Shown here: positions 43,826-64,000 of the stretch, in pieces
Position numbering within the stretch: the stretch's first letter is position 1
Layout: the number at the start of each line of letters is the position of its first letter
Assembly (NCBI GenBank): GCA_900318205.1
Contig: ONJS01000011.1
Coordinates: 1 to 64,000 of the forward strand
Direction of reading: 5' to 3'
From: an uncultured Prevotellaceae bacterium
GTDB lineage: Bacteria > Bacteroidota > Bacteroidia > Bacteroidales > Muribaculaceae
Length of the DNA: 64,000 bases
Position numbers and translations under genes: made by a program
Notes under the pieces: model-generated
What the model was told of the DNA's origin: nothing
The model's database searches: none
Seen by the model: only the letters and a program-made list of their open reading frames with translations

Positions 43826-44383
43826 ATGACCAGATACTTCATCATCACGTTCATCGTGCTGCTGATGGCATCGACGACCATGCCGTCACGTGCCCAGGAG
43901 ATAACCAAAGCCGAGATGGCACGCATCCGCGCCGCCTATAGCGCCGCCAAAGAGCGAGTAGAACTCAACAGCCATGCCCAGGAGCAGAACGTCCCCCGCA
44001 GCGACATGGAGATTGTCAGCCATTACGTTATCCCGGGATGTGGTCCCACCGAGGAAGTCATCCACTACTATTTCACGCTCGACGAAGATCCCGTATTGGG
44101 AACACCCTATTACAAACTCTACTTCATTTCCACCACCTACAACGTGGCGGCCCGCAAGTTCTATCAAGAGTTCCTTTTTAGTGAAGATGGCTCCGACCTG
44201 CTGTTCTTCTTCCAAAGCAATGATGCCCTGGACGGCGGCACCGACGAGACGCATTATTACTACGGCAAGAACGGCATCCACAAGTCCATCAACGGAACCG
44301 CCGAACTCGACGAAGTCTTTGCCGCCCGCAAAGCCGACGACCTAAAAACCGCCTTCACCCACCTCCTAAACAAAGACTACTAA
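43826..44383 (+). CDS. Secreted hypothetical protein
   Basis: A 185-residue protein with a signal peptide (about 1-23, ending PSRAQ). The mature part is about half beta and rich in aromatic residues (EVIHYYFTLDEDPV, YYKLYFISTTYNVAARKFYQEFLF). No family recognised. It lies 18 bp behind the AAA gene and probably shares its transcript. Last gene before the accessory segment. Confidence 0.75.
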   Translation: MTRYFIITFIVLLMASTTMPSRAQEITKAEMARIRAAYSAAKERVELNSHAQEQNVPRSDMEIVSHYVIPGCGPTEEVIHYYFTLDEDPVLGTPYYKLYFISTTYNVAARKFYQEFLFSEDGSDLLFFFQSNDALDGGTDETHYYYGKNGIHKSINGTAELDEVFAARKADDLKTAFTHLLNKDY

Positions 44384-44777
44384 TAAAACCACCTCCTTGT
44401 TAATGATCCTCAAGCCCCCCAAACCTATCACTAGATAATTCTAACACAATCTTGGTACACCCCATTGCACACATGATTTTTGACCTATAGGTAAATTATG
44501 GTGATTGCTAGCACGTCTATACGCACCTCATTCGTTAGATTGTTAACACTTTAAAAGCCATATGGTAACATCTAACACGTGTTATGTATCAAATCTAGCA
44601 GTAAAAAATACACTATGTAGCACTATTATACCAGTGCTAAGGGCGAACGAACATCTTCTACAATGCACTTATAACTTTAGCAGTAATCCTACTGACAAGA
44701 GAAGGCTTTAAAGCAGAGGAAATAGGAAGAAGTGAAGAGAAAAGATTAACCTCACGATTATCCCTTAGATGTTTGTC
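44384..44777. other. Non-coding junction with left direct repeat
   Basis: No gene. AT-rich, carrying the repeat described at 44533-44610; the remaining ~160 bp before the MORN gene's stop show nothing recognisable. Confidence 0.5.
44533..44610 (+). repeat. Long direct repeat, left copy
   Basis: Begins CGTTAGATTGTTAACACTTT, contains CATATGGTAACA and the palindrome TAACACGTGTTA, and ends in an A-run. A close copy in the same orientation lies at 54307-54386. Confidence 0.8.
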
Positions 44778-45866
44778 TCATTTTTTGTGTCCATCCCAAT
44801 CTTCCCAAGAAGATCTGAACATCTGGTAGCCACGACTTTCCCATTTTTCTCTGATGCGTTTCATTTTGCTTTGTATGTCTCGACGATGACTGTCGTTGTA
44901 CTCGTCTTCCCAATAGGTGTTCATCTTAATCAGTTGAGATTCATAACCTGAATATGATTTTTGATCTCTATTCTTGGCTTCAACGTCATTGCCTGATTGC
45001 TTAGACTTGCCCGATGATTTGCTCCCTGTTCTAGTAGATGATCCAGACAAACCTGTATCGGTGTCATCATCATATTCTCCGCCATCATTCTTTGAGGTGA
45101 TTTCGTTAACCAATGCCATCATCGTGGCGCCGGCCTTCTTGAATTCTTCAAATGCACCAGAGATTGCTTTATTAAAATTTGCCTTAGCGGTAGCTGCCTG
45201 CTCTTTGTATTTTTCTGAGGAACTGATAAGCTCACTGCTATCATCCTTGTAATTGATGGTTTCCCACTCTCCATCATAGGATAGGTATAGCCCGATGCCT
45301 TTCTGGGTGCCATTCTTGAAATGGCTTTGCCATACATCACCATTGCCAAAAATGATGGCACCAAAGCCGTTTACTTCTTTTCCTGATAATTCACCCACAT
45401 AGGTACTTCCGTTTCCTAAATCAACAAGAGAGAAGTATCGTTTTAGTGAAGGATTGGATGATGGATAAGCTTCTGTAGGTTTATCATCTGAAAACTGACC
45501 CTGGTAGATGACATCACCATTCTCATTGTAACAAATACCCGAGCCCGACTTCTTGCCATCTTTGAAATTCCCAACATACACTTGACACCCTTCACAATTC
45601 AATACCTGATTTGATGCCAGCAACAATCCGTAACCAGTCACAGCATTCATGTAAAAGTCACCTACATATACCGATCCGTCCTTGAATTGGTATAGGCCCA
45701 TACCGTTGCGTTTCCCTTTAATAATTTGGCCCTTGAATTTTTCCTTCCCCTTTTTTTCAGTAGCAATTTCAAATGATTTGGAAAAGGCGCTGATAGATTC
45801 TTGGGATTGAGCATTAATGAAGTTTGCACAGAATGCAAACATAAGAAAACATATGATAAATCTCAT
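44778..45866 (-). CDS. Secreted MORN-repeat protein
   Basis: About 362 residues from ATG 45866 (MRFIICFLMF), chosen because a signal peptide (1-19, FINAQS) starts there; the upstream extension to 45959 is hydrophobic and unlikely. At least five MORN-type repeats (about 40-215; patterns YVGDFYMN, YVGNFKDGKKSGSG, YQGQFSDDK, YVGELSGKEVNGFG). A helical segment (about 225-265), a Gly/Ser-rich linker, and a charged C-terminus (DIQSKMKRIREKWESRG) follow. Located 92 bp after a small secreted protein in the same orientation. Role unknown. Confidence 0.82.
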   Translation of the reverse strand: MRFIICFLMFAFCANFINAQSQESISAFSKSFEIATEKKGKEKFKGQIIKGKRNGMGLYQFKDGSVYVGDFYMNAVTGYGLLLASNQVLNCEGCQVYVGNFKDGKKSGSGICYNENGDVIYQGQFSDDKPTEAYPSSNPSLKRYFSLVDLGNGSTYVGELSGKEVNGFGAIIFGNGDVWQSHFKNGTQKGIGLYLSYDGEWETINYKDDSSELISSSEKYKEQAATAKANFNKAISGAFEEFKKAGATMMALVNEITSKNDGGEYDDDTDTGLSGSSTRTGSKSSGKSKQSGNDVEAKNRDQKSYSGYESQLIKMNTYWEDEYNDSHRRDIQSKMKRIREKWESRGYQMFRSSWEDWDGHKK

Positions 45867-45958
45867 TTTGTTGAAAATATAAAGTAAAATAAAAAAGAGC
45901 AACACCTCTAAAACAAGTCTTGAGAAGGCGTTACTCGTTGTGCAATCATTAAAGAACA

Positions 45959-46453
45959 TTATTGTTGAATATACTCGGGAAGCATTTCATACTTTTTGTC
46001 GTTCAGCATCTTTTGGGCATCTTTCTCGGAAATCTCTTTAAGACGGATGTCTTTAATGCCCTTGTTCTCTAGCATAATGTAGTGAACCGAGCCTTCAGTG
46101 AGATTCAATTGAATTTCGGTATCTAATTCTGAAACAGCGAGAGTGCCGACGTTTGTGAATTTGAAATCAATCGAGAATAACGCTTTTCCCTCTTCATTGA
46201 TAACGCATTTCTTCTTGCAGGGGTTATAACTGACTGAGGCAATTTTCATCGGGCCGATTGGATTGATGGTCTTTTTCACAGATCCTCTTAATTCGCCAAT
46301 TTCCTGACCGTTCATCTTTAATGTGATTTCGCTATTGTCAAATGATTTTGCAAAGAAATAAACTGTGCTCTGAGCGTAAGCCCCAATTGCGGCAAGCCCC
46401 ATCATTAAAATAAACACGGCGATTCTCGATTGGTTTAATAGCAAATGCTTCAT
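45959..46453 (-). CDS. Secreted hypothetical protein
   Basis: About 164 residues from ATG 46453 (MKHLLLNQSRIAVFIL), with a signal peptide (about 1-28, IGAYAQS). The mature part looks like a beta-sandwich (STVYFFAKSFDNSEITLKMNG). A charged C-terminal tail carries KDAQKMLNDKKYEMLPEY. No family recognised. Upstream of the MORN gene and likely cotranscribed. Confidence 0.7.
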   Translation of the reverse strand: MKHLLLNQSRIAVFILMMGLAAIGAYAQSTVYFFAKSFDNSEITLKMNGQEIGELRGSVKKTINPIGPMKIASVSYNPCKKKCVINEEGKALFSIDFKFTNVGTLAVSELDTEIQLNLTEGSVHYIMLENKGIKDIRLKEISEKDAQKMLNDKKYEMLPEYIQQ

Positions 46454-47264
46454 TGTCTTAGCCCTGATGTGTGTCGGGCACAACTGATAAATGATGAATA
46501 ATAATGCTATACATTTTTGATAGCAAAGAATAAAAACAAACATAAAAGCCGCTTACAATCAAGTGATTGAATGGTGCTGTCGCAGACTGGCATGGGCAGA
46601 AAAACAGGGCATCTTGTTTTGACGTAGCCTATCTGAGGTTTCCATCTGCCAATAATAATCACCTGTGCTAACTACCAATTAATGAACAACAAGCTTTTAT
46701 GACAACATGGGTTGCCTAGGCAATTCCATGGCAAAAATACGCATTATATTTCACAATTTAAGCGATAATGGTGAGAAATGTCAAAATTATTCTATGAAAA
46801 GCAAAAACGAAATATTCAGTCAAAGACAAAGGACCATGTTTCAATTGCCCGCATTACATGTCTTTCATGCTGGTTTAATCAAGTGAGAGCTCGTTATAAA
46901 ATCTTGGTATATAATATATTGTTAAAGAATTATACTTTGGCACGGTAATTGCAGATATAGGTTCGAACTCATAATTTTTGGAGGACTCCAAAAACCCTTT
47001 ATTTATCGGGGTTTCCAAAGATTTCGACACATCCAAAGGGTGCAAAAATTGCCACCACAAAATTAGGCTATTTTTCTGGTTCAACCAAGGGAAAAAGCCT
47101 ATTATTTTTTTGCGAACCATTTTTGACCAAGCATTACGATTGATTCTAGTTTTGCCCAATTTTTCCAGATACGCCCTGATATGGATTATATGTTACAACC
47201 TTTTTAAAAATTCTACTAACACCAATTTGTCTGCATCTAATTCGTAGTGAATCGTTGAGATATA
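46454..47264. other. AT-rich intergenic region without supported gene
   Basis: 810 bp with no convincing gene. Overlapping opposite frames (46875-47159 minus, 94 codons; 46978-47247 plus, 89 codons) lack start context and known domains; the minus frame reads like a decayed peptide. GGTTCGAACTC at 46960-46970 imitates a tRNA T-arm but no acceptor or anticodon arm fits around it. Confidence 0.4.
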
Positions 47265-47588
47265 TTAATCATATAGGTCAGAATAGTACTCTTCAAGATT
47301 CTCTACTGGGAGTTGTATAGGAACGTCTCTATTGGGTCTAACATGAAGACTTTCATCCGCGATCACAGGCACCCTTTTACAGACGCATTGCCGTTTGCAA
47401 ACAACAGAATCTTCGTCTTTAATCATGAAGATCATTCCTTGCTGCAAATATTTCTTATACATTTCAGAGTATTCACCTTTATAATAAACCACACCATCCT
47501 CATCCTTTAGTCGAGCATAGGGCGCTACACAAAAATCAGTGAATTCTTCATCAGATTCAAAGAAAACAATGTTATCCTTTATTTCCAT
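47265..47588 (-). CDS. Small hypothetical protein
   Basis: A 107-residue acidic protein (starts MEIKDNIVFFESDEEF) with three close cysteines (VVCKRQCVCKR near 63-71) and no signal or membrane segment. No family recognised. Codon use is AT-rich like its neighbourhood. Isolated between non-coding stretches. Confidence 0.55.
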   Translation of the reverse strand: MEIKDNIVFFESDEEFTDFCVAPYARLKDEDGVVYYKGEYSEMYKKYLQQGMIFMIKDEDSVVCKRQCVCKRVPVIADESLHVRPNRDVPIQLPVENLEEYYSDLYD

Positions 47589-47817
47589 AATAATCTTGAC
47601 GATTAACCTATCATCGTGAGGCTTCTGTGGTTTAACGAGTTAGTGTTCGCTTTACAAGAAACACATGAGCCGAATAATTCTATTATATGAACAATTCTTT
47701 GCCATGTACTTATACTTCAGCTACAAAATTACAACATTTTTAGTAACAAAACAACAATCTATCTCAAGCATTTACTCGCCTTTGGTATTACAGTGTGAAC
47801 GGGAATAGGCCGGAATT

Positions 47818-48707
47818 CTATTGCCGGTACTTGATCTGGAAGTAGTCGAGCAGAGCCTTGAAGTTGTCCTGGGCCGTGAGGCAGGTATCGAGCAGGAAGC
47901 CTTTGGTGCGGGGCCATTCTCGAAGGCCTCGGTAGTAGGACATCTTTAGGTCGTCGGTGATGTTGAAGGGAACAATGCTTGCCGACAAGCATTCCTTGAA
48001 CATAATCAGACGCCCCACACATCCGTTACCGTCCTGGAATGGGTGAATTGCCTCGAAACGTTGATGGAAGTCGATAATGTCCTCCAAGCTGTGTTTCTTG
48101 ATGGCGTTATATTCTTGCAGCATATCCCTCACTTGGCGGGAACGTCGGACGGTGCCGCTGTTTCCACTCCACCCACCTCATTGGGCAGTCGCTTATAGTC
48201 ACCCACGGCAAACCAAGTTTTACGGGAATCGGACGTGCCGGACTTGAGCATAAGGTGCAACTGCTTAATGAATGATTCTGTCAACATTGCCCCTGCCGAC
48301 TCAATGATCAAGTCGATGCAGCGGAAGTGATTGGCCGTTTCGATAATATCATCCACATTGACAGCCTCGTCCGTGATACCGATAGTGTTGGTTTCAAAGA
48401 TATACCGCGTTTGGTCATGGGTCAGACGGCTACCCTCAATATGATTGGAATTATAAGTAAGGTCAATTTGGACACGATGGTAAATGCCGCCCTTTACCTT
48501 TCCTACCTGTTGTTCCTGGAGTGCTGTCAGTAGAGGTGACGTCTTTGCCTTTTTCTTACGACCAGGTAAAACGGTATCGGCGGGCACATTCCATGACTTC
48601 CCCACGAGATAGGCACCGTCAATCTTCCCGCTCGCACAGTAGTTACGGGCGGTGCGTTCCGAGACATTGAACTTCTCGGCGAATTGCTTCACTGATAAAT
48701 ACTCCAT
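47818..48707 (-). pseudogene. Fic-domain protein with N-terminal HTH, frameshifted
   Basis: Two overlapping frames together make one Fic protein. The first (48129-48707) has a DNA-binding HTH (about 3-40, VKQFAEKFNVSERTARNY) and the class II inhibitory helix (SNHIEGS near 88-94); it ends in DVPAK-stop. The second (47818-48132) continues with VRDMLQEYN and the Fic core HPFQDGNGCVGRLI. One missing base near 48131 (a G before GTGAGG) explains the break. The first arginine of the GNGRxxR core is Cys here, so AMPylation may be lost even if the frame is restored. A sequencing error is the other explanation for the shift. Confidence 0.85.
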
Positions 48708-57114: not shown

Positions 57115-59214
57115 ATGAATAATACCGTTAAGAAACAGAAACTCTTTACCAAGTCGGCGTTCAAGATTGCGCTTGAGTGTCCCAACAAGTTGTATTACTA
57201 TCGTAATCCGGAAGTCTATACCAATGCTGATGTGGAGGATGAGTTCCTGCAGGCGTTGGCTGAAGGTGGTTTCCAGGTGGGTGAACTTGCCAAGATTTAT
57301 TGCGGGGTACCTCCTGAGAACGACATCGAGGAGCTGGACTACGACTCTGCGTTGCGTCGCACCCAGGAGCTGATGCAGCAAGAGCAGGTGAATATCGCCG
57401 AGGCAGCCTTCCGCTATGGCAACTTGTTCGTGAGGGTCGATGTGCTGCAACGCAACGGAAACCATATCGAGTTGATTGAGGTCAAAGCCAAGTCGTGGGA
57501 CCCCGAGGAGGATACGTTCTATGGCAAGAAGCCTGAGGGTAGCGTTAAGAATGACATCCGGCCTTACGTCTATGACGTGGCGTTCCAGAAGTATGTCGTC
57601 ACACTTGCGCTTCAGGAGCTGTATCCTGACCGGCATTTTACGGTGAAGGCTCGTTTGATGATGGCCGACAAGAGCAAGACTGCCGACATCAACGGTTTGA
57701 ATCAGCTGTTCAAAATCAAGAAAGTGAATAATCGCGCTCGTGTCGAGACAGCGCCTGATGCGATGCAACAGCTGGCTCATTCCCAGGTTCAAGTGCTCAC
57801 GGCTTTTGACGTGGATGCGTTGTGTGACCGTGTTATTGCTGGCGATACTGCCGAGCAAGGCAAGGACGACTTTATGCTTAACATGAAGTTCCTGGATTAT
57901 GTCGATGCGATGTCACAGTATTACTGCAAAAACGAGCCATACCCTGACATCATGCTGGGGGCGAAGTGTTTCAAGTGCCAGTTCCAGAGCGATGGCACTG
58001 ATGGAAAGCAAGATGGCTACCGCGAATGCTGGAGAAAGGCGGCACATTTTGCCGACAGTGACTTCGACCAACCGTTGGTCAAGGACTTGTGGAAGCAATA
58101 TGTCAAGTGTGATGTGTGGGTCAAAGACGGAATCTACAAGATGGCCGATATCACCGAGGAACAGTTAGAACGTCATGCAGATAAAAAGTCTGGGCCCGGG
58201 TTGGACCACAAGGAACGCAAGTGGCTGCAAATTGCCATGATGACTGGCAACCAAGAGGTGCTCAGCGACTATGCCGCCGACATCCATGACGGGGTCTATC
58301 TTGACATTGAGGGCCTCAAGGCCGAGATGGCCAAGTGGAAGTTCCCGTTACACATGATAGATTTCGAGACTACGGCGGTCGCCTTGCCCTATTATGAGGG
58401 GATGCGCCCTTACGAGCAGGTGGCTTTTCAGTTCTCGCACCACATCATTGAGCAGACCGCCGACGGGGGCTACACCATCCGCCATGCAGGGCAGTACCTC
58501 AACGAGGATGTGAGCCAATTCCCCAACTTTGAGTTTGTGCGGGCTTTGCGGGAGCAGTTGGCACATGACGAGGGCACCATCTTCCGCTATGCGCCCCACG
58601 AGAATTCCATCCTGCGTGCCATCTACAAGCAATTGGAGGAGAGTACAGAGCCCGATAAGCAGGAATTGATGGACTTCATCGACAAGATTACCCATGTCAA
58701 GGACAAAAAGACTCACAAGATGCTCCATCAAGGCAAGCGCGACATGGTCGATCTGTGGGAGGTGGTTAAGCGATACTTCTATGAGCCTAAGGAGATGGGT
58801 GGCAGCAACAGCATCAAGGTGGTGTTACCCGCCGTGCTCAATGCCTCGCAGTTTCTCAAGGATAAATACTCCAAGCCCATCTACGGCAAAGAGATACCAA
58901 GCCAAAATATATCCTCGACCAAACCTATCAAATGGATTGCCTTTGATGCATCAGGCCACGTCGAGAATCCATACCACTTGTTGCCTTCCGTGAGCGATTT
59001 GCTCGGCATTGGCATCATCGATGACGAGATGCTCGAGAGCATGGGCAACGACATGACCATTGCCAACGGTGGCGCAGCCCTCACAGCCTACAACAAACTG
59101 ATGTTCTGCGACGGCAGCATGAATGATGCCCTACGCGAAGCCCTGCTCCGCTACTGCGAACTCGACACCATGGCCATGGTCTTCATCTGGGAATTTTTCA
59201 ACCAACACATTTAA
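57115..59214 (+). CDS. DUF2779 protein: Fe-S RecB/Cas4-like nuclease fused to DEDD exonuclease
   Basis: 699 residues. The N-terminal half has a RecB/Cas4-like nuclease: D109 (VDVL) and E122-V-K124 (LIEVKAKSW), with four cysteines placed as in Fe-S nucleases: C22 (ECPNKLYYY), C285, C288 (CFKC) and C305 (RECW). The C-terminal DUF2779 half carries a DnaQ-like DEDD exonuclease pattern: D416 and E418 (MIDFETTA), E496 (APHENSILRAIY) and D684 (RYCELDTMAM). Related TM0106-type RecB-RNase H fusions exist. The gene starts a two-gene unit with another nuclease 18 bp on. A defence or DNA-processing role is inferred only. Confidence 0.82.
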   Translation: MNNTVKKQKLFTKSAFKIALECPNKLYYYRNPEVYTNADVEDEFLQALAEGGFQVGELAKIYCGVPPENDIEELDYDSALRRTQELMQQEQVNIAEAAFRYGNLFVRVDVLQRNGNHIELIEVKAKSWDPEEDTFYGKKPEGSVKNDIRPYVYDVAFQKYVVTLALQELYPDRHFTVKARLMMADKSKTADINGLNQLFKIKKVNNRARVETAPDAMQQLAHSQVQVLTAFDVDALCDRVIAGDTAEQGKDDFMLNMKFLDYVDAMSQYYCKNEPYPDIMLGAKCFKCQFQSDGTDGKQDGYRECWRKAAHFADSDFDQPLVKDLWKQYVKCDVWVKDGIYKMADITEEQLERHADKKSGPGLDHKERKWLQIAMMTGNQEVLSDYAADIHDGVYLDIEGLKAEMAKWKFPLHMIDFETTAVALPYYEGMRPYEQVAFQFSHHIIEQTADGGYTIRHAGQYLNEDVSQFPNFEFVRALREQLAHDEGTIFRYAPHENSILRAIYKQLEESTEPDKQELMDFIDKITHVKDKKTHKMLHQGKRDMVDLWEVVKRYFYEPKEMGGSNSIKVVLPAVLNASQFLKDKYSKPIYGKEIPSQNISSTKPIKWIAFDASGHVENPYHLLPSVSDLLGIGIIDDEMLESMGNDMTIANGGAALTAYNKLMFCDGSMNDALREALLRYCELDTMAMVFIWEFFNQHI

Positions 59215-59232
59215 CTTAATAAAAACACAACT

Positions 59233-60606
59233 ATGACTGACGTAGAACAATTATTACTAGATTTCAATAGAAATCCCGATAATCGTGAACTTCAAGATTT
59301 CTATTCAAGAAAGTCCATGATGGAAATGATGGGGGTTGCCCGTAGCGAAGTGGCACACAGTGCTTTCCTAGCATGGCTCCTTAGCGGAAAAGATGTTTGT
59401 GTTCATTCAGCAGACTCTCCGTTGATGTGGTTATTTCAAGTACTTGTTTTGCGAGAATACACTTCACAATCCATTTTTTTTAGCAATGACATAAAAACCA
59501 GGATATTGAACCGCAGCCTAGGTTTTGAAATTCTAGAAGTCGTTCCTGAAAAAAAAATCAATCAGATATCTGGCAATTATTTTAGTTCAAACTACCCGAA
59601 CAGAAAACCAAGCGAAGACAAACTTGATGTATATATCAAAGGCCGATTTGACAATGGGGAAATCTTTGAGATATTCATTGAGAATAAGATCCTATCGCCC
59701 GAAGAGGGTCCCAAGAGCGGAAAGAACATGAAATTGACGGGCTATGATGACCAGTGGCAAACCCAGCGCTATTATCAAGCCACATCCGGTAATGGAAACA
59801 ACTTAAAATTATATGTTTATCTGCGACCTGATAAGTTATCACCTGTCTCTAAATCTGCCTGCAATTGCAAACAGTATATTCAGATTTGTTACCAAGACTT
59901 ACTTGATTACATTCTTATTCCATTAACTCAAAATGATGATCTTGCAGAACGCTCAAAAATATTAGTGCAAGAATATATTGATAGCTTAAGCATCCCCACT
60001 ACAGACACAAGTGCCCATAAACGAATCGTCATGGCATCGACTCAAGACGAGATGAAATGGATTAACTTGTTCATAGAGAGAAATAAGCAGCTAATGTTTC
60101 TTATGCTAAAAGCCATGTGCAGTAAGAAAAACAGCAAGCTACTATCAGCGGATGAAGAATTGTTGTTAGACTTTGCTGAGTATAATAAGAATCTTATTTA
60201 TGCAATAGCAAATATGATAGAGGACAAATCGGTGAATTTGGATGATTTATATGATTATAGCAAGCCTGTAAGTGGATATCTTATTGAACCTTTGTTTGCC
60301 ATCTTCAAAGACAGCTCTTTCGGTTTTGAGTTCGCCAAGAGGTTTGCAATTCACAATGAGTCAAAGGTTAATAGTATTAATGACTTAAATAAATTGCTAT
60401 CCACAGAAATTTCTTTGGTAACAACGGGAATATACTACAACTCTTCAACCATACAATTACAATGCAGGAAAATCGATGATTTCAAAAAATTCGACCTGTA
60501 CGCTACGACAGGCACATGGCAAAAGGGAGACAAAGGATTGCTAACGAGACTCATGAATGCTCTGAATAAGAATCCATTGAGCTACTTTAGCTGGACTGTC
60601 ATTTAA
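59233..60606 (+). CDS. PD-(D/E)XK nuclease-superfamily protein
   Basis: 457 residues. N-terminal part SEVAHSAFLAWLLSG (about 36-50) is typical of PDDEXK_4-type proteins; the active site is D132 (KLDVYI), E150 and K152 (FIENK), followed by WQTQRYYQAT. The C-terminal ~230 residues are helical and unrecognised. AT-rich codon use contrasts with the upstream gene, so the pair may have been assembled from different sources. A weak hairpin (CTTC/GAAG then TTTTA, about 60608-60626) may end the transcript. Confidence 0.82.
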   Translation: MTDVEQLLLDFNRNPDNRELQDFYSRKSMMEMMGVARSEVAHSAFLAWLLSGKDVCVHSADSPLMWLFQVLVLREYTSQSIFFSNDIKTRILNRSLGFEILEVVPEKKINQISGNYFSSNYPNRKPSEDKLDVYIKGRFDNGEIFEIFIENKILSPEEGPKSGKNMKLTGYDDQWQTQRYYQATSGNGNNLKLYVYLRPDKLSPVSKSACNCKQYIQICYQDLLDYILIPLTQNDDLAERSKILVQEYIDSLSIPTTDTSAHKRIVMASTQDEMKWINLFIERNKQLMFLMLKAMCSKKNSKLLSADEELLLDFAEYNKNLIYAIANMIEDKSVNLDDLYDYSKPVSGYLIEPLFAIFKDSSFGFEFAKRFAIHNESKVNSINDLNKLLSTEISLVTTGIYYNSSTIQLQCRKIDDFKKFDLYATTGTWQKGDKGLLTRLMNALNKNPLSYFSWTVI

Positions 60607-60755
60607 GCTTCATTCTAACGAAGTTTTATAGGCCGTATAAAGAATTATATTTGGAGAGAGGGCATTTTTAGCTGGAGATTCATTCTGATTTTACTCAATA
60701 TCGTAACATCGCATCTGCGACTTGTCTTGTAAGTTCCATGCCTTAGGTGTGTCAA

Positions 60756-60828
60756 TTTTTTACGACAGGAGATTCAAGTTTTCCTGACGGGGAAACGGAA
60801 TGTGGGTAAATGATTCCTTCTACTTTTG
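60756..60828 (+). promoter_or_regulatory. CCGAC-type activated promoter, copy A
   Basis: TTTTTTACGACA (60756-60767) and CCTGACGG (60783-60790), then 30 bp to a TACTTTTG -7 box (60821-60828). No -33 TTG at the right place. Same layout as copies B and C; the second site has one extra T. Confidence 0.7.
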
Positions 60829-60862
60829 CGGTGTGAAATCGTTAGAAGTAGGAGGAATTATT

Positions 60863-60985
60863 ATGTTTTGGTTTATCATCGGAATCGTAATTGCGCTGCT
60901 GGGTGGGTTCATCATCCTCTCGGCGCAGCGCCATGTAATGAATGTCATCGGCGGGATCATCCAGACGATCTTGTCACTTTTTTGA
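60863..60985 (+). CDS. Small single-helix membrane protein
   Basis: 40 residues from ATG 60863 (MFWFIIGIVIALLGGFIILS), nearly all one transmembrane helix with a small polar loop (AQRHVMN) and a second hydrophobic end. It has a consensus AGGAGG (60850-60855) 7 bp before the ATG, rare in this lineage, which supports real translation and fixes the start. Preceded by promoter copy A. Could be a membrane effector, holin-like or regulator; no family recognised. Confidence 0.7.
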   Translation: MFWFIIGIVIALLGGFIILSAQRHVMNVIGGIIQTILSLF

Positions 60986-61100
60986 ACTACGAACCTTTAG
61001 CTCAGCGAAGCCAATTTCGAATTGAACTAATGGGCATCCGCATATATTTTTACGAATTATTTTCACATCAATTAATCATAACAAAAACAAGAACAAGAAC

Positions 61101-61484
61101 ATGGAATCTAACATATTTATCAATCAAGTCACGGAACTTTATGCAGCGGCATTGGCCGAGGCCATAGCGCTGTTGAAGAACAACGAGAACGGGCGATACA
61201 TCGCCATCCCGAACTGGGAGGATGAGGTGGCTGCCACTTCTTGGAACGATGTGCCTATCAGCATCTGGGGTGTCGGTCTTAATGACGACGAGCACATTTG
61301 CGTCAGGGCTTTTGTCAACAATGTTGGATACGGCTACACCGAAGACGACTTCCCCCAGGACTGGACCGATATCACTGTAGAGAAGATCAACGCATCTTGT
61401 TATCCCGAGCTCTATCGTTTTGTCGCCGATAATATCGGCAAGGCGATGTCGAAGGAAGATGCCGATAACGTCGAATGGGAGTAA
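61101..61484 (+). CDS. Hypothetical acidic protein
   Basis: A 127-residue acidic protein (MESNIFINQVTELYAAALAE): N-terminal helix, then a mixed alpha/beta part with IAIPNWEDEV and ISIWGVGLNDDEHICVRAFV. No signal or motif; family not recognised. Phage-type small proteins look similar. It follows the small membrane protein by 115 bp in the same orientation. Confidence 0.7.
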   Translation: MESNIFINQVTELYAAALAEAIALLKNNENGRYIAIPNWEDEVAATSWNDVPISIWGVGLNDDEHICVRAFVNNVGYGYTEDDFPQDWTDITVEKINASCYPELYRFVADNIGKAMSKEDADNVEWE

Positions 61485-61541
61485 CACTGTTAAGCCAATC
61501 AGAAAGCTCAGATTAATCAGTTGTTGATTTTTTGTGTCTAG

Positions 61542-61615
61542 TTTTTCCGACAGGTGGTGTAAAGATATACCGACGGAATTGTGTGGGACGGGTCGAAAGA
61601 TTCGTCCTACTTTTG
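61542..61615 (+). promoter_or_regulatory. CCGAC-type activated promoter, copy B
   Basis: TTTTTCCGACAGG (61542-61554) and TATACCGACGG (61566-61576), site starts 23 bp apart, then 31 bp to TACTTTTG (61608-61615). No -33 TTG. Confidence 0.75.
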
Positions 61616-61700
61616 CAATGTCATTTTTTGAAGGGGGATAATTGGAATTCATTATTTGCTTTTTCAGATAAAAACATTATTTTTGTATATCAAAATTATT

Positions 61701-62876
61701 ATGAAGAGTATGGAAAAATATCACGTTGGACATGAGATTGAGAAGGAATTGCGTGCTCAGGGGAAGTCGGCAAGGTGGTTGGCTGATAAGATTTGTCTGA
61801 CGCCGCAAGCTGTGTATGACATCTTTAAAAGGGAGTACATCTCCACCGCACGCTTAATAAAGATTCAGCGTGCACTGGAGCGCGACTTTTTCATGGAATA
61901 TTCTAAATATATTAAAAATGGGGGTGTTGTCGCTGATGAGGAAGACGAGAGCGTAATCAAGGAACGCTTCGAGATGCTGATGCCCGAGGACAAGCTGCAT
62001 GTTCTTGACTGGGAGAAGTATTATGAACTGGCCGAAGAGTTTGTCATGACTGAGCATCACAAGCCACTGATTATCTACACAAACGACTGGGCTGCACAAA
62101 CAAGTGTGATTAATAATGTTGCCGATGCTGAGCTTGGCATTGGAAAAGTGCATAATCTCGACTTGAAGGATGAACGCAAGAAGGGAAAGACTGACGATGA
62201 TATGGTCCAAATTGTAAAGGCTATGCCGCACCCCATTATCCAAGTGGTGAGCCCGAGCGGTGACAATGACTTCCATTTCTTGGTTTCTTTGGCCCAAGTT
62301 ACTGGCAAGAAGGTGTTCGCTTATTGCAGGGTACTCCAAACGATCAACAATTATACCAATGTTCCAGAGTATCATGACACAACCATCAAGCCTTTCGGTG
62401 CATGGCATGAGCAAATCCATTTTGCTTTTGTTGATGACAATCGCCAGTCCTACAGGCAGACGCGCCAGTTGTTTTTAGCAGATTGGGGTGAGGACATCTT
62501 GAGCTTTCTCAAGGCACACATGCCAGACCTGCTCAACGACAAAGACCACAATACTATTTTGGAATGGCTGAACAATCCCGAGTCACTCTATGAAGCCTAT
62601 CGAACATGGCTTGATGCTCGGGCCAGAAAACAAGCTTGGCTTAAAGATTTTACTCTCATGTTCATGGACGATAAGTTGAACTTCAAGCAAGATGGTTCTC
62701 GTTGGTCCATCAGTCTGCCGGTGGACTATATAACCGAGAATACCTACAAAAACAAATTGATGAAGGACTCCCTTCGACGATTGTCCATGTGGATTGAGAT
62801 CCAAAACGATTACATCGTTGACTTTGAAGGGTCTTTAAGGCAAAGTTATCTTGGAGATGATGCTTGTGAAGAATAA
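61701..62876 (+). CDS. XRE-type HTH protein with large unknown C-terminal domain
   Basis: About 391 residues from ATG 61701 (MKSMEKYHVG) or 61710; the upstream part to 61656 has only a TTG. The first ~60 residues form an XRE/Cro-like HTH (KSARWLADKICLTPQAVYDIFKREYIS) of the kind ending in DFF. Residues ~110-250 hold a beta/alpha region (PLIIYTNDWAAQTSV; HPIIQVVSPSGDNDFHFL), the rest is helical and aromatic-rich. Regulator of the local genes is a reasonable guess because it lies behind promoter copy B and between copies A and C. No ligand domain recognised. Confidence 0.75.
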   Translation: MKSMEKYHVGHEIEKELRAQGKSARWLADKICLTPQAVYDIFKREYISTARLIKIQRALERDFFMEYSKYIKNGGVVADEEDESVIKERFEMLMPEDKLHVLDWEKYYELAEEFVMTEHHKPLIIYTNDWAAQTSVINNVADAELGIGKVHNLDLKDERKKGKTDDDMVQIVKAMPHPIIQVVSPSGDNDFHFLVSLAQVTGKKVFAYCRVLQTINNYTNVPEYHDTTIKPFGAWHEQIHFAFVDDNRQSYRQTRQLFLADWGEDILSFLKAHMPDLLNDKDHNTILEWLNNPESLYEAYRTWLDARARKQAWLKDFTLMFMDDKLNFKQDGSRWSISLPVDYITENTYKNKLMKDSLRRLSMWIEIQNDYIVDFEGSLRQSYLGDDACEE

Positions 62877-62994
62877 AAAGAGTGGAATTGTGGCACATCT
62901 TTATCAAAAATGATGTATTTTTGTGGAAAGAAAAAAGAGGTTGCCAAATCGCTTGAAAGGAAGTAGGCATTTAACTAATAAATGAAGAACGAAT

Positions 62995-63198
62995 ATGGGA
63001 AACTATCATGTGAAATTCCGCGTCCATTACGTTGGCGGAACGACCGATGAATTCGACGAAGTAATCAGTGAGGAAAAGTACCATTGGTACTCCGATGGCA
63101 GTCAAGGCTCAAGCCGTATGGCTGCTCTGGCTGAACAGCATGACTACAAGGGTCGCAAGGTCAACTACGTGACAATGTCACTGATAAAGATTGTCTGA
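62995..63198 (+). CDS. Small hypothetical protein
   Basis: 67 residues (MGNYHVKFRVHYVGGTTDEF), a short beta-rich basic protein ending TMSLIKIV. It resembles small phage or plasmid proteins in size; no family recognised. A purine-rich GAACGAAT leader precedes the ATG. The next ATG is 35 bp past its stop. Confidence 0.55.
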   Translation: MGNYHVKFRVHYVGGTTDEFDEVISEEKYHWYSDGSQGSSRMAALAEQHDYKGRKVNYVTMSLIKIV

Positions 63199-63232
63199 TA
63201 AGTTGTTTATCTGGGCAATGTTCAGATATAAA

Positions 63233-63517
63233 ATGAGTAGGAGCAAGTTACGTAGCCAGTGGATGAGGAATAAGTTTGATTCTGACGAACACAATCCCCA
63301 CAAATATGATGAGATGCCCAAGAATTCGGTTCCTAAGCATATCAACATGCGTTGCGACATGTCGACGGTCGCTTGGCTGCAAGAGAGTGGCTCTTTTGGT
63401 GGTCACAAGGTCCGGCACGCAGGGCACCGAATGGTCAGTGGCATTGTCCGTCAGAAGATGAGAGAGGAATTGCGTGAGGAAATCGCCAATGAACTCGACC
63501 CAAAGAGTAAAGAATAA
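63233..63517 (+). CDS. Small basic hypothetical protein
   Basis: About 94 residues from ATG 63233 (MSRSKLRSQWMRNKF); a TTG at 63191 would overlap the previous gene. Basic first half, then KHINMRCDMSTVAWLQESGS and a charged C-terminal helix (VRQKMREELREEIANEL). Possible DNA-associated protein; no family recognised. Confidence 0.55.
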   Translation: MSRSKLRSQWMRNKFDSDEHNPHKYDEMPKNSVPKHINMRCDMSTVAWLQESGSFGGHKVRHAGHRMVSGIVRQKMREELREEIANELDPKSKE

Positions 63518-63550
63518 CCGATTCATTTTGTGGTAAATAGAATCGTCCAG

Positions 63551-63623
63551 TTTTTCCGACACAAGGTGTCAAGTTATACCGACGGATATTTGTAGGTCGG
63601 ATTGGGGATTCGATATAATTTTG
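63551..63623 (+). promoter_or_regulatory. CCGAC-type activated promoter, copy C
   Basis: TTTTTCCGACA (63551-63561) and TATACCGACGG (63575-63585), CCGAC motifs 23 bp apart, then 30 bp to TAATTTTG (63616-63623). No -33 TTG. Confidence 0.75.
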
Positions 63624-63660
63624 CAGCGTCAAACCTTCGGAGAGTGGGATTTGGCGCTGC
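63623..63660 (+). promoter_or_regulatory. Stem-loop at the start of the last transcript's leader
   Basis: GCAGCG...CAAA pairs with TTTG...CGCTGC across a 16-nt loop, starting at the -7 box end. It would be at or near the 5' end of the mRNA for the gene at 63695. Confidence 0.45.
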
Positions 63661-63694
63661 TTAAGATTATTCATCAATTAAAACATATCGAGTT

Positions 63695-64000
63695 ATGACA
63701 GTAAAAGAATTAAAGAACGCCCTGCAGGGCATCAGCGAGCCTATCGACCGCATCGCCGGTTTCTGTGACAACTACGACCAGATGTTTGACCACTGCGAGG
63801 TGCGTGTTAACGAGAACACCGTGGAAATTGACACTAGTGAGGATCTTTTCAAACCCGAGAATTTCCAGCCTGTTGCCGAATCCATCGCCCGGATTCTTGC
63901 CTTGCCCGTAGAGGTGGACGAGCACTTTGTTTTGTATGAGGGTGCGGACAATCAAGCCGAGACCTGCCTGCTCACGCGTGATATCCGCAGGGTCAACGTC
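63695..64000 (+). CDS. Hypothetical protein, C-terminus beyond window edge
   Basis: 102 codons visible from ATG 63695 (MTVKELKNALQGISEPID), still open at the right edge. An acidic soluble protein (FKPENFQPVAESIARILALP; VDEHFVLYEGADNQ). No family recognised. Expressed from promoter copy C with a stem-loop leader. Confidence 0.7.
   Translation, partial: MTVKELKNALQGISEPIDRIAGFCDNYDQMFDHCEVRVNENTVEIDTSEDLFKPENFQPVAESIARILALPVEVDEHFVLYEGADNQAETCLLTRDIRRVNV

Follow-up and report, generated by a model that had tools for sequence, protein, structure and literature searches.

The stretch of DNA analysed here (the window) comprises positions 1-64000 of contig ONJS01000011.1 from an uncultured Prevotellaceae bacterium (assembly GCA_900318205.1, 3.62 Mb in 53 contigs). 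This genome is called G000 and the contig C8, so that the window is C8:1-64000 and positions without a prefix refer to it. Its right end runs into an island (C8:57000-80300) with a GC content of 43.7% versus 50.9% in the remaining contig, in which pairs of similar sites stand upstream of promoters and which encodes HTH391 (61701-62876, plus strand), a protein of 391 amino acids with an XRE-type helix-turn-helix (HTH) and an alpha/beta domain of uncertain fold, the proposed regulator. A second HTH protein, HTH505 (C8:78553), is encoded past the window's end.

Paired sites and their promoters

The earlier note on this DNA had reported paired CCGAC motifs at three promoters. The pairs are real, yet every CCGAC forms the right-hand end of a longer site of ~19 bp, delimited by repeat finding and alignment as GTGTCnAGTTTTTCCGACA for the upstream site 1 and GTGTCnAGTTtaACCGACG for the downstream site 2, and three further promoters past the window's end (C8:71794, 76598 and 78229) had been missed. 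Within the window, all on the plus strand, promoter 1 (60749-60829) consists of site 1 at 60749-60767, site 2 at 60771-60790 and the -7 box TACTTTTGC at 60821-60829; promoter 2 (61534-61616) of sites at 61534-61552 and 61557-61576 and the -7 box TACTTTTGC at 61608-61616; and promoter 3 (63543-63624) of sites at 63543-63561 and 63566-63585 and the -7 box TAATTTTGC at 63616-63624. The shared layout described for the three units is present in all of them, promoters 2 and 3 carrying exact TTTTTCCGACA and TATACCGACGG, but promoter 1 is degenerate in both sites (TTTTTTACGACA as site 1, and TTTTCCTGACGG instead of TATACCGACGG in site 2). Both sites contain an imperfect dyad, TGTC-N10-GACA, with the same centre.

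The spacing is fixed, as the note had it. Site 1 starts 72-74 bp before the -7 box in 18 of 18 promoters of the first four genomes compared, the window's three included, and site 2 ends 30-31 bp before it both in these three and in the 14 promoters among the 18 whose site 2 is intact or nearly so. Start to start, the two sites are 21-23 bp apart in the same 18 promoters and 24 bp apart in genome G413. Site 2 starts 50-51 bp before the box, and the boxes fit TANNTTTGY, given as the Bacteroides -7 consensus in PMC12632263. The reported lack of a -33 TTG was likewise borne out, none being found at a spacer of 18-22 bp in the window's three promoters; promoter 3 has a TTTG at spacer 23.

Allowing up to three mismatches, the 19-mer returned seven matches in the 3.62-Mb genome, all on the plus strand of one 18-kb stretch (C8:60749-78247), and no reverse-strand copy genome-wide, versus two genome-wide matches for a backwards control pattern. 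The seven matches make up six promoters, both sites matching at C8:71794. The motif is not frequent at housekeeping genes, which the earlier note had named as a refutation, and its copies in this genome are confined to the island. A 20-kb stretch (L003) holds four matches to the core pattern with up to three mismatches, versus a shuffle mean of 0.09, and one of them (three mismatches, minus strand) is taken for a chance match; the signal is weaker in the window alone (two matches versus 0.28 shuffled, with 3 of 100 shuffles reaching two). A position weight matrix (PWM) covering both sites and the box found no match in ~289 kb of reversed sequence.

Conservation and concerted change

In a set of 26 promoters (three in G180 and G413, plus that of G279, set aside), 162 pairs across gene classes, without class E, have a mean identity of 0.84 for site 1, 0.67 for site 2 and 0.86 for the box, but of 0.35 for the spacer, 0.29 on the upstream and 0.36 on the downstream side. 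Since spacers are alike among orthologous promoters only, where their mean identity rises to 0.71 (48 pairs), sites 1 and 2 and the box are all that the promoters have in common.

The five class E promoters keep site 1 (0.83 to the others) and have a diverged site 2 (0.39). All five carry TTG at spacer 21, and TTG at 18-22 bp occurs in 4 of the 21 others, one of which, the class D promoter of G385, has a decayed site 2. A TTG near -33 where site 2 is degenerate would fit a site that replaces the -33 element, a pattern that is suggestive only, because the promoters are related by descent.

The sites also change in concert. With class E and G017 additionally left out (20 promoters), identity over the two sites together is 0.787 in 24 pairs from the same genome but different classes, 0.742 in 123 pairs that differ in both genome and class, and 0.768 in 43 pairs of the same class from different genomes. 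Permuting genome labels within class gave p = 0.0006 for both sites (site 1 0.05, site 2 0.002, spacer 0.10). The sites thus track the genome and the spacers track the gene, which fits operators that follow one trans-acting protein. The footprint, the constant spacing, the reappearance of the pair in other species and the way the sites change in concert together argue well for the earlier note's proposal, made from the letters of the window, that a single activator may control this uncharacterised gene set.

When 397 genomes of the family, this one among them, were scanned with a pattern, 11 had matches. Seven of these were read, and in five of them (G000, G260, G381, G193 and, with a distant relative, G279) the cluster or an HTH391 relative lies beside the site; G060 and G202, chosen for a one-mismatch site, had no cluster in the stretches read, and the other matched genomes are G096, G162, G218 and G220. 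Further clusters were read in G385, G403, G017, G180 and G413. Under strict filters, a sequence-only motif model (R1) gave 29 strong matches (E<1e-7), 18 of which had served to build it, in 9 of the 101 genomes of the genus: six in G000, four each in G260, G381, G193 and G385, three in G403, two in G180 and one each in G017 and G413. All 29 lie in stretches read, at or beside a partly conserved cluster. At E<=0.01 the model matches 84 of the 101 genomes; among the matches listed, none beyond the 29 exceeds 27.4 bits and most of the weaker ones cover the box half only. The PWM from the first four genomes also found the pair in the other three genomes whose HTH391 relative is long, namely G385 (two full, two with poor site 2), G403 (two full, one with poor site 2) and G017 (one), as well as two promoters in G180 and one in G413. 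An exact-match scan of 84,980 species genomes returned five stretches, one of them the G381 island, where ~7.5 would be expected by chance in a rough estimate assuming even base composition.

HTH391 is matched in 39 of the 101 genus genomes and past the HTH in only seven, and HTH505 has relatives in six (a seventh match covers the HTH only); all of these long HTH391 relatives and HTH505 relatives fall among the nine motif genomes. The pair precedes the HTH391 gene in G000, G260, G381, G193, G385 and G017. G279, from another genus of the same family, encodes a distant HTH homolog (27-35% identity) that has just one site, which lies 52 bp ahead of a TATCTTTGC box, near the proximal (site 2) position. 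An order-level search with the HTH391 family at E<=1e-20 returned only its own genome among 393. In G017, a frame ~2.8 kb from HTH391 (G017:C7:20798-22150; L073:14798-16150) begins like an HTH and contains a TPPYW motif; judged by eye, it is a likely DNA methyltransferase.

Candidate binders and rival readings

The HTH_3 match of HTH391 falls just below cut-off, and that of its alpha/beta domain to NYN is weak and sub-threshold. In Foldseek its HTH resembles small XRE regulators (E 0.02-0.05), HigA and HipB chains first, followed by chains of the controllers C.BclI and C.Esp1396I. HTH505 is related to HTH391 in and just past the HTH (hhalign 98.6%); its model, with a predicted local distance difference test (pLDDT) score of 45.7, is too poor for a structure search.

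We favour, at a probability of roughly 0.6, the reading that an XRE-type protein, most likely HTH391, binds the pair and activates promoters that mostly have no -33 box, its own included. The island would then be one multi-operon regulon. We infer that the protein would bind as a dimer to two imperfect TGTC-N10-GACA dyads 21-24 bp apart. Centred ~40 and ~63 bp ahead of the -7 box, these would lie just upstream of the -33 position and on about the same helix face, and the bound pair would recruit RNA polymerase to promoters mostly devoid of a -33 box. With the HTH391 gene itself behind a paired promoter, expression of four to six short operons would become self-reinforcing and co-ordinated. Counted from a box at -7, both sites fall upstream of the -33 region, a position at which an activator is expected rather than a repressor.

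Several observations weigh against this reading. The AlphaFold model of HTH391 is of moderate quality (pLDDT 67); a Foldseek search with it gave no match at E<=0.001, and its top ranks are not HTH proteins but AAA- or RecA-like ones at low template modelling score. The dyad is weak, with 42% and 38% complementarity at the best centre, and gene conversion could be an alternative source of the concerted change. G180 has two promoters (scores 65.6 and 45.5), the second before genes not seen in other clusters, but neither a full HTH391 nor HTH505. In G403 three promoters persist, site 2 being poor in one of them, though the HTH391 relative of this genome is without the HTH, so HTH505 would have to be the binder there. 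Moreover, the HTH gene and the sites share one island, so their co-occurrence alone is no proof of binding.

In a rather unlikely alternative, the same activator pair would be read by HTH505, by another XRE protein of this genome or by the AAA ATPase encoded in the island, through an N-terminus that looks winged-helix-like by eye. HTH505, akin to HTH391 around the HTH, is intact in G403, and HTH-only relatives of HTH391 are common, given the 39 genomes matched and the seven matched past the HTH. However, sites occur with no HTH505 match in G381 (82% complete) and G017. In G017 a single paired promoter immediately precedes HTH391, and the stretch read there contains no AAA protein. HTH505 itself stands behind a class E promoter, with its degenerate site 2, in G000, G260, G193 and G385; in G413 HTH505 is truncated and follows a class D-like pair, and in G403 no site was found directly before it.

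That the pair is instead the operator of an autorepressor we consider unlikely. Many XRE proteins repress their own genes, and the only PHROG matched by HTH391 is a 'transcriptional repressor' (1e-4), but the sites stop 30 bp ahead of the -7 box and stay clear of the core promoter, most promoters are without a -33 box, and a degenerate site 2 goes with a TTG near -33 (5 of 5 class E promoters and class D of G385).

It is very improbable that the repeats mark where mobile cassettes (insertion sequence, integron-like or rAID-like) end or recombine and that the promoters merely travelled with them. Modules are partly shuffled between species, the island's GC content is lower and rAID arrays feature conserved intergenic motifs (PMC12247911), but the copies in this genome have one orientation, a fixed distance to the -7 box and no counterparts elsewhere, the exact scan of species genomes stayed below its rough chance expectation, and no tyrosine recombinase was found among the proteins scanned of C8:44778-84579 (not every open reading frame was scanned, and the contig ends at 84619). 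IS21-type ends, suggested by the direct repeat, were considered and rejected: there are no reverse copies, one orientation and no copies elsewhere, and the only IS21 match is sub-threshold and on another contig (C44).

The logic of the proposed HTH391-driven activation resembles most closely that of restriction-modification (R-M) controller proteins, and the earlier note's 'novel architecture' was an overstatement, tandem operator pairs read by XRE-type controllers being described from R-M systems (PMC4041747, PMC4321490). As in C.Esp1396I and C.Csp231I, the candidate regulator sits behind its own promoter with two dyad operators upstream of the gene, and in C.Esp1396I the dimer at the distal site (OL) is reported to recruit sigma (PMC4041747, PMC4321490). 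Unlike those systems, several operons are involved here instead of one, both sites lie upstream of the core promoter, and the dyad has no GACT/AGTC boxes; PMC4321490 also describes further C-protein classes that deviate from that canonical box. No methyltransferase linked to the island was found among the island proteins scanned in this genome. Controller proteins are small (~80 amino acids), whereas HTH391 has 391 amino acids with an extra alpha/beta domain. As size, box sequence and gene partners differ, the island is not classed as an R-M controller system. A search of open-licence PubMed Central, judged by titles and abstract starts, gave nothing on point for such sites or such an island, and the string GTTTTTCCGACA gave nothing relevant there.

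Genes of the island and their possible role

The cluster order is partly conserved, individual genes being missing or relocated in several genomes: DUF2779 protein, a variable gene, a 40-amino-acid membrane protein, HTH391, a 94-amino-acid protein, a 301-amino-acid protein, an alpha/beta hydrolase, a 75-amino-acid membrane protein with the AAA ATPase, and HTH505. The genes named next with window positions are all on the plus strand. The DUF2779 gene (57115-59214), before which no paired site was found in the window, comes first in G000, G260, G381, G385 and G403. The slot after it varies, with a PDDEXK_4 nuclease (59233-60606) in G000, an HNH protein in G260 and other proteins in G381, G385, G403 and G180. 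The 40-amino-acid membrane protein (MFWFIIG...; 60863-60985) has a gene start similar to one at C8:78382, before the HTH505 gene, and to one in G403. A 127-amino-acid protein (61101-61484) follows, with relatives in G381 (80%) and G403 (89%). Beyond HTH391 lie a 67-amino-acid protein (62995-63198; 93% identity in G193, 94% in G385), the 94-amino-acid protein (63233-63517; relatives in G381, G260 and G403) and the start of the acidic 301-amino-acid protein (63695-64000, ending at C8:64600; 73-98% identity in four other genomes).

A 26-bp leader-like repeat, GCCAAATCGCTTGAAAGGAAGTAGGC at 62943-62968, belongs to a family (GCCGAATCGCTTGAAAGGACGTAGGC) with further copies at C8:74141, 76701 and 78332; four of its five genome copies (up to three mismatches) are in the island and the fifth is on C40, and it had no Rfam match. 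Rfam searches of 60500-64000 and L003 gave nothing above the gathering score and one sub-threshold match each. A DUF3990 protein (C8:75849-76319) has weak, sub-threshold similarity to ADP-ribosyltransferases. Just past the island, on the minus strand, a short resolvase-domain protein (C8:80625-81101) covers profile positions 66-143 of 145. Elsewhere in the window, a MORN-repeat protein and the genes next to it lie in a stretch (44001-48000) where GC content falls to 39.9%. A sigma-70-like protein of 125 amino acids (C8:69118-69495; "mini-sigma"), matching regions 1.2 and 2 only, was dropped as a special promoter factor, having no relative in the other clusters compared.

The earlier note had also raised a prophage, satellite or defence regulon. 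A phage origin has little support: searches of phages, plasmids and viral contigs with HTH391 came back empty, and none of ten island proteins matched a PHROG for structure, packaging or integration, although the ATPase (phrog_3757, 5.9e-41), an NT5C-type protein (phrog_420, 2.2e-24) and the mini-sigma (phrog_351, 2e-12) do have relatives in phages. Nor do the results support a plasmid, an insertion sequence or a recombinase array; the rAID orphan-immunity arrays of Bacteroidales share co-oriented genes and conserved intergenic motifs with the island (PMC12247911), but here nucleases, an AAA ATPase and an alpha/beta hydrolase stand in a partly conserved order and the motif is tied to a promoter box. 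A defence role is possible, two island PD-(D/E)XK proteins matching PDC-S26 and the ATPase partially matching IetA (PADLOC). The likeness to the anti-phage system IetAS is incomplete, as the ATPase scores 96 bits versus the 510-bit curated cut-off of the anti-phage ATPase model (NCBIfam). In IetAS, IetS is a protease partner, and no such protease was found among the scanned island proteins.

We tentatively speculate that rumen-type Prevotellaceae could have in this island a multi-operon system for conflict or defence that has not been described before. Its controller would join an XRE domain to a sensor-like alpha/beta domain and, once a threat is sensed, would use -33-less promoters to turn on the AAA ATPase, the hydrolase, the nuclease and the small membrane proteins together; in some promoters, site 2 would have been traded for a -33 box.

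Our analysis suggests that, in an island carried by a few species of a single Prevotella-family genus, one protein may switch a gene set on together. The shared sites tie about ten little-annotated genes into one likely functional unit. With six natural promoters in one strain, 29 in nine genomes and a named candidate activator, the idea that an activator may take the place of the -33 element in Bacteroidota promoters becomes directly testable here.

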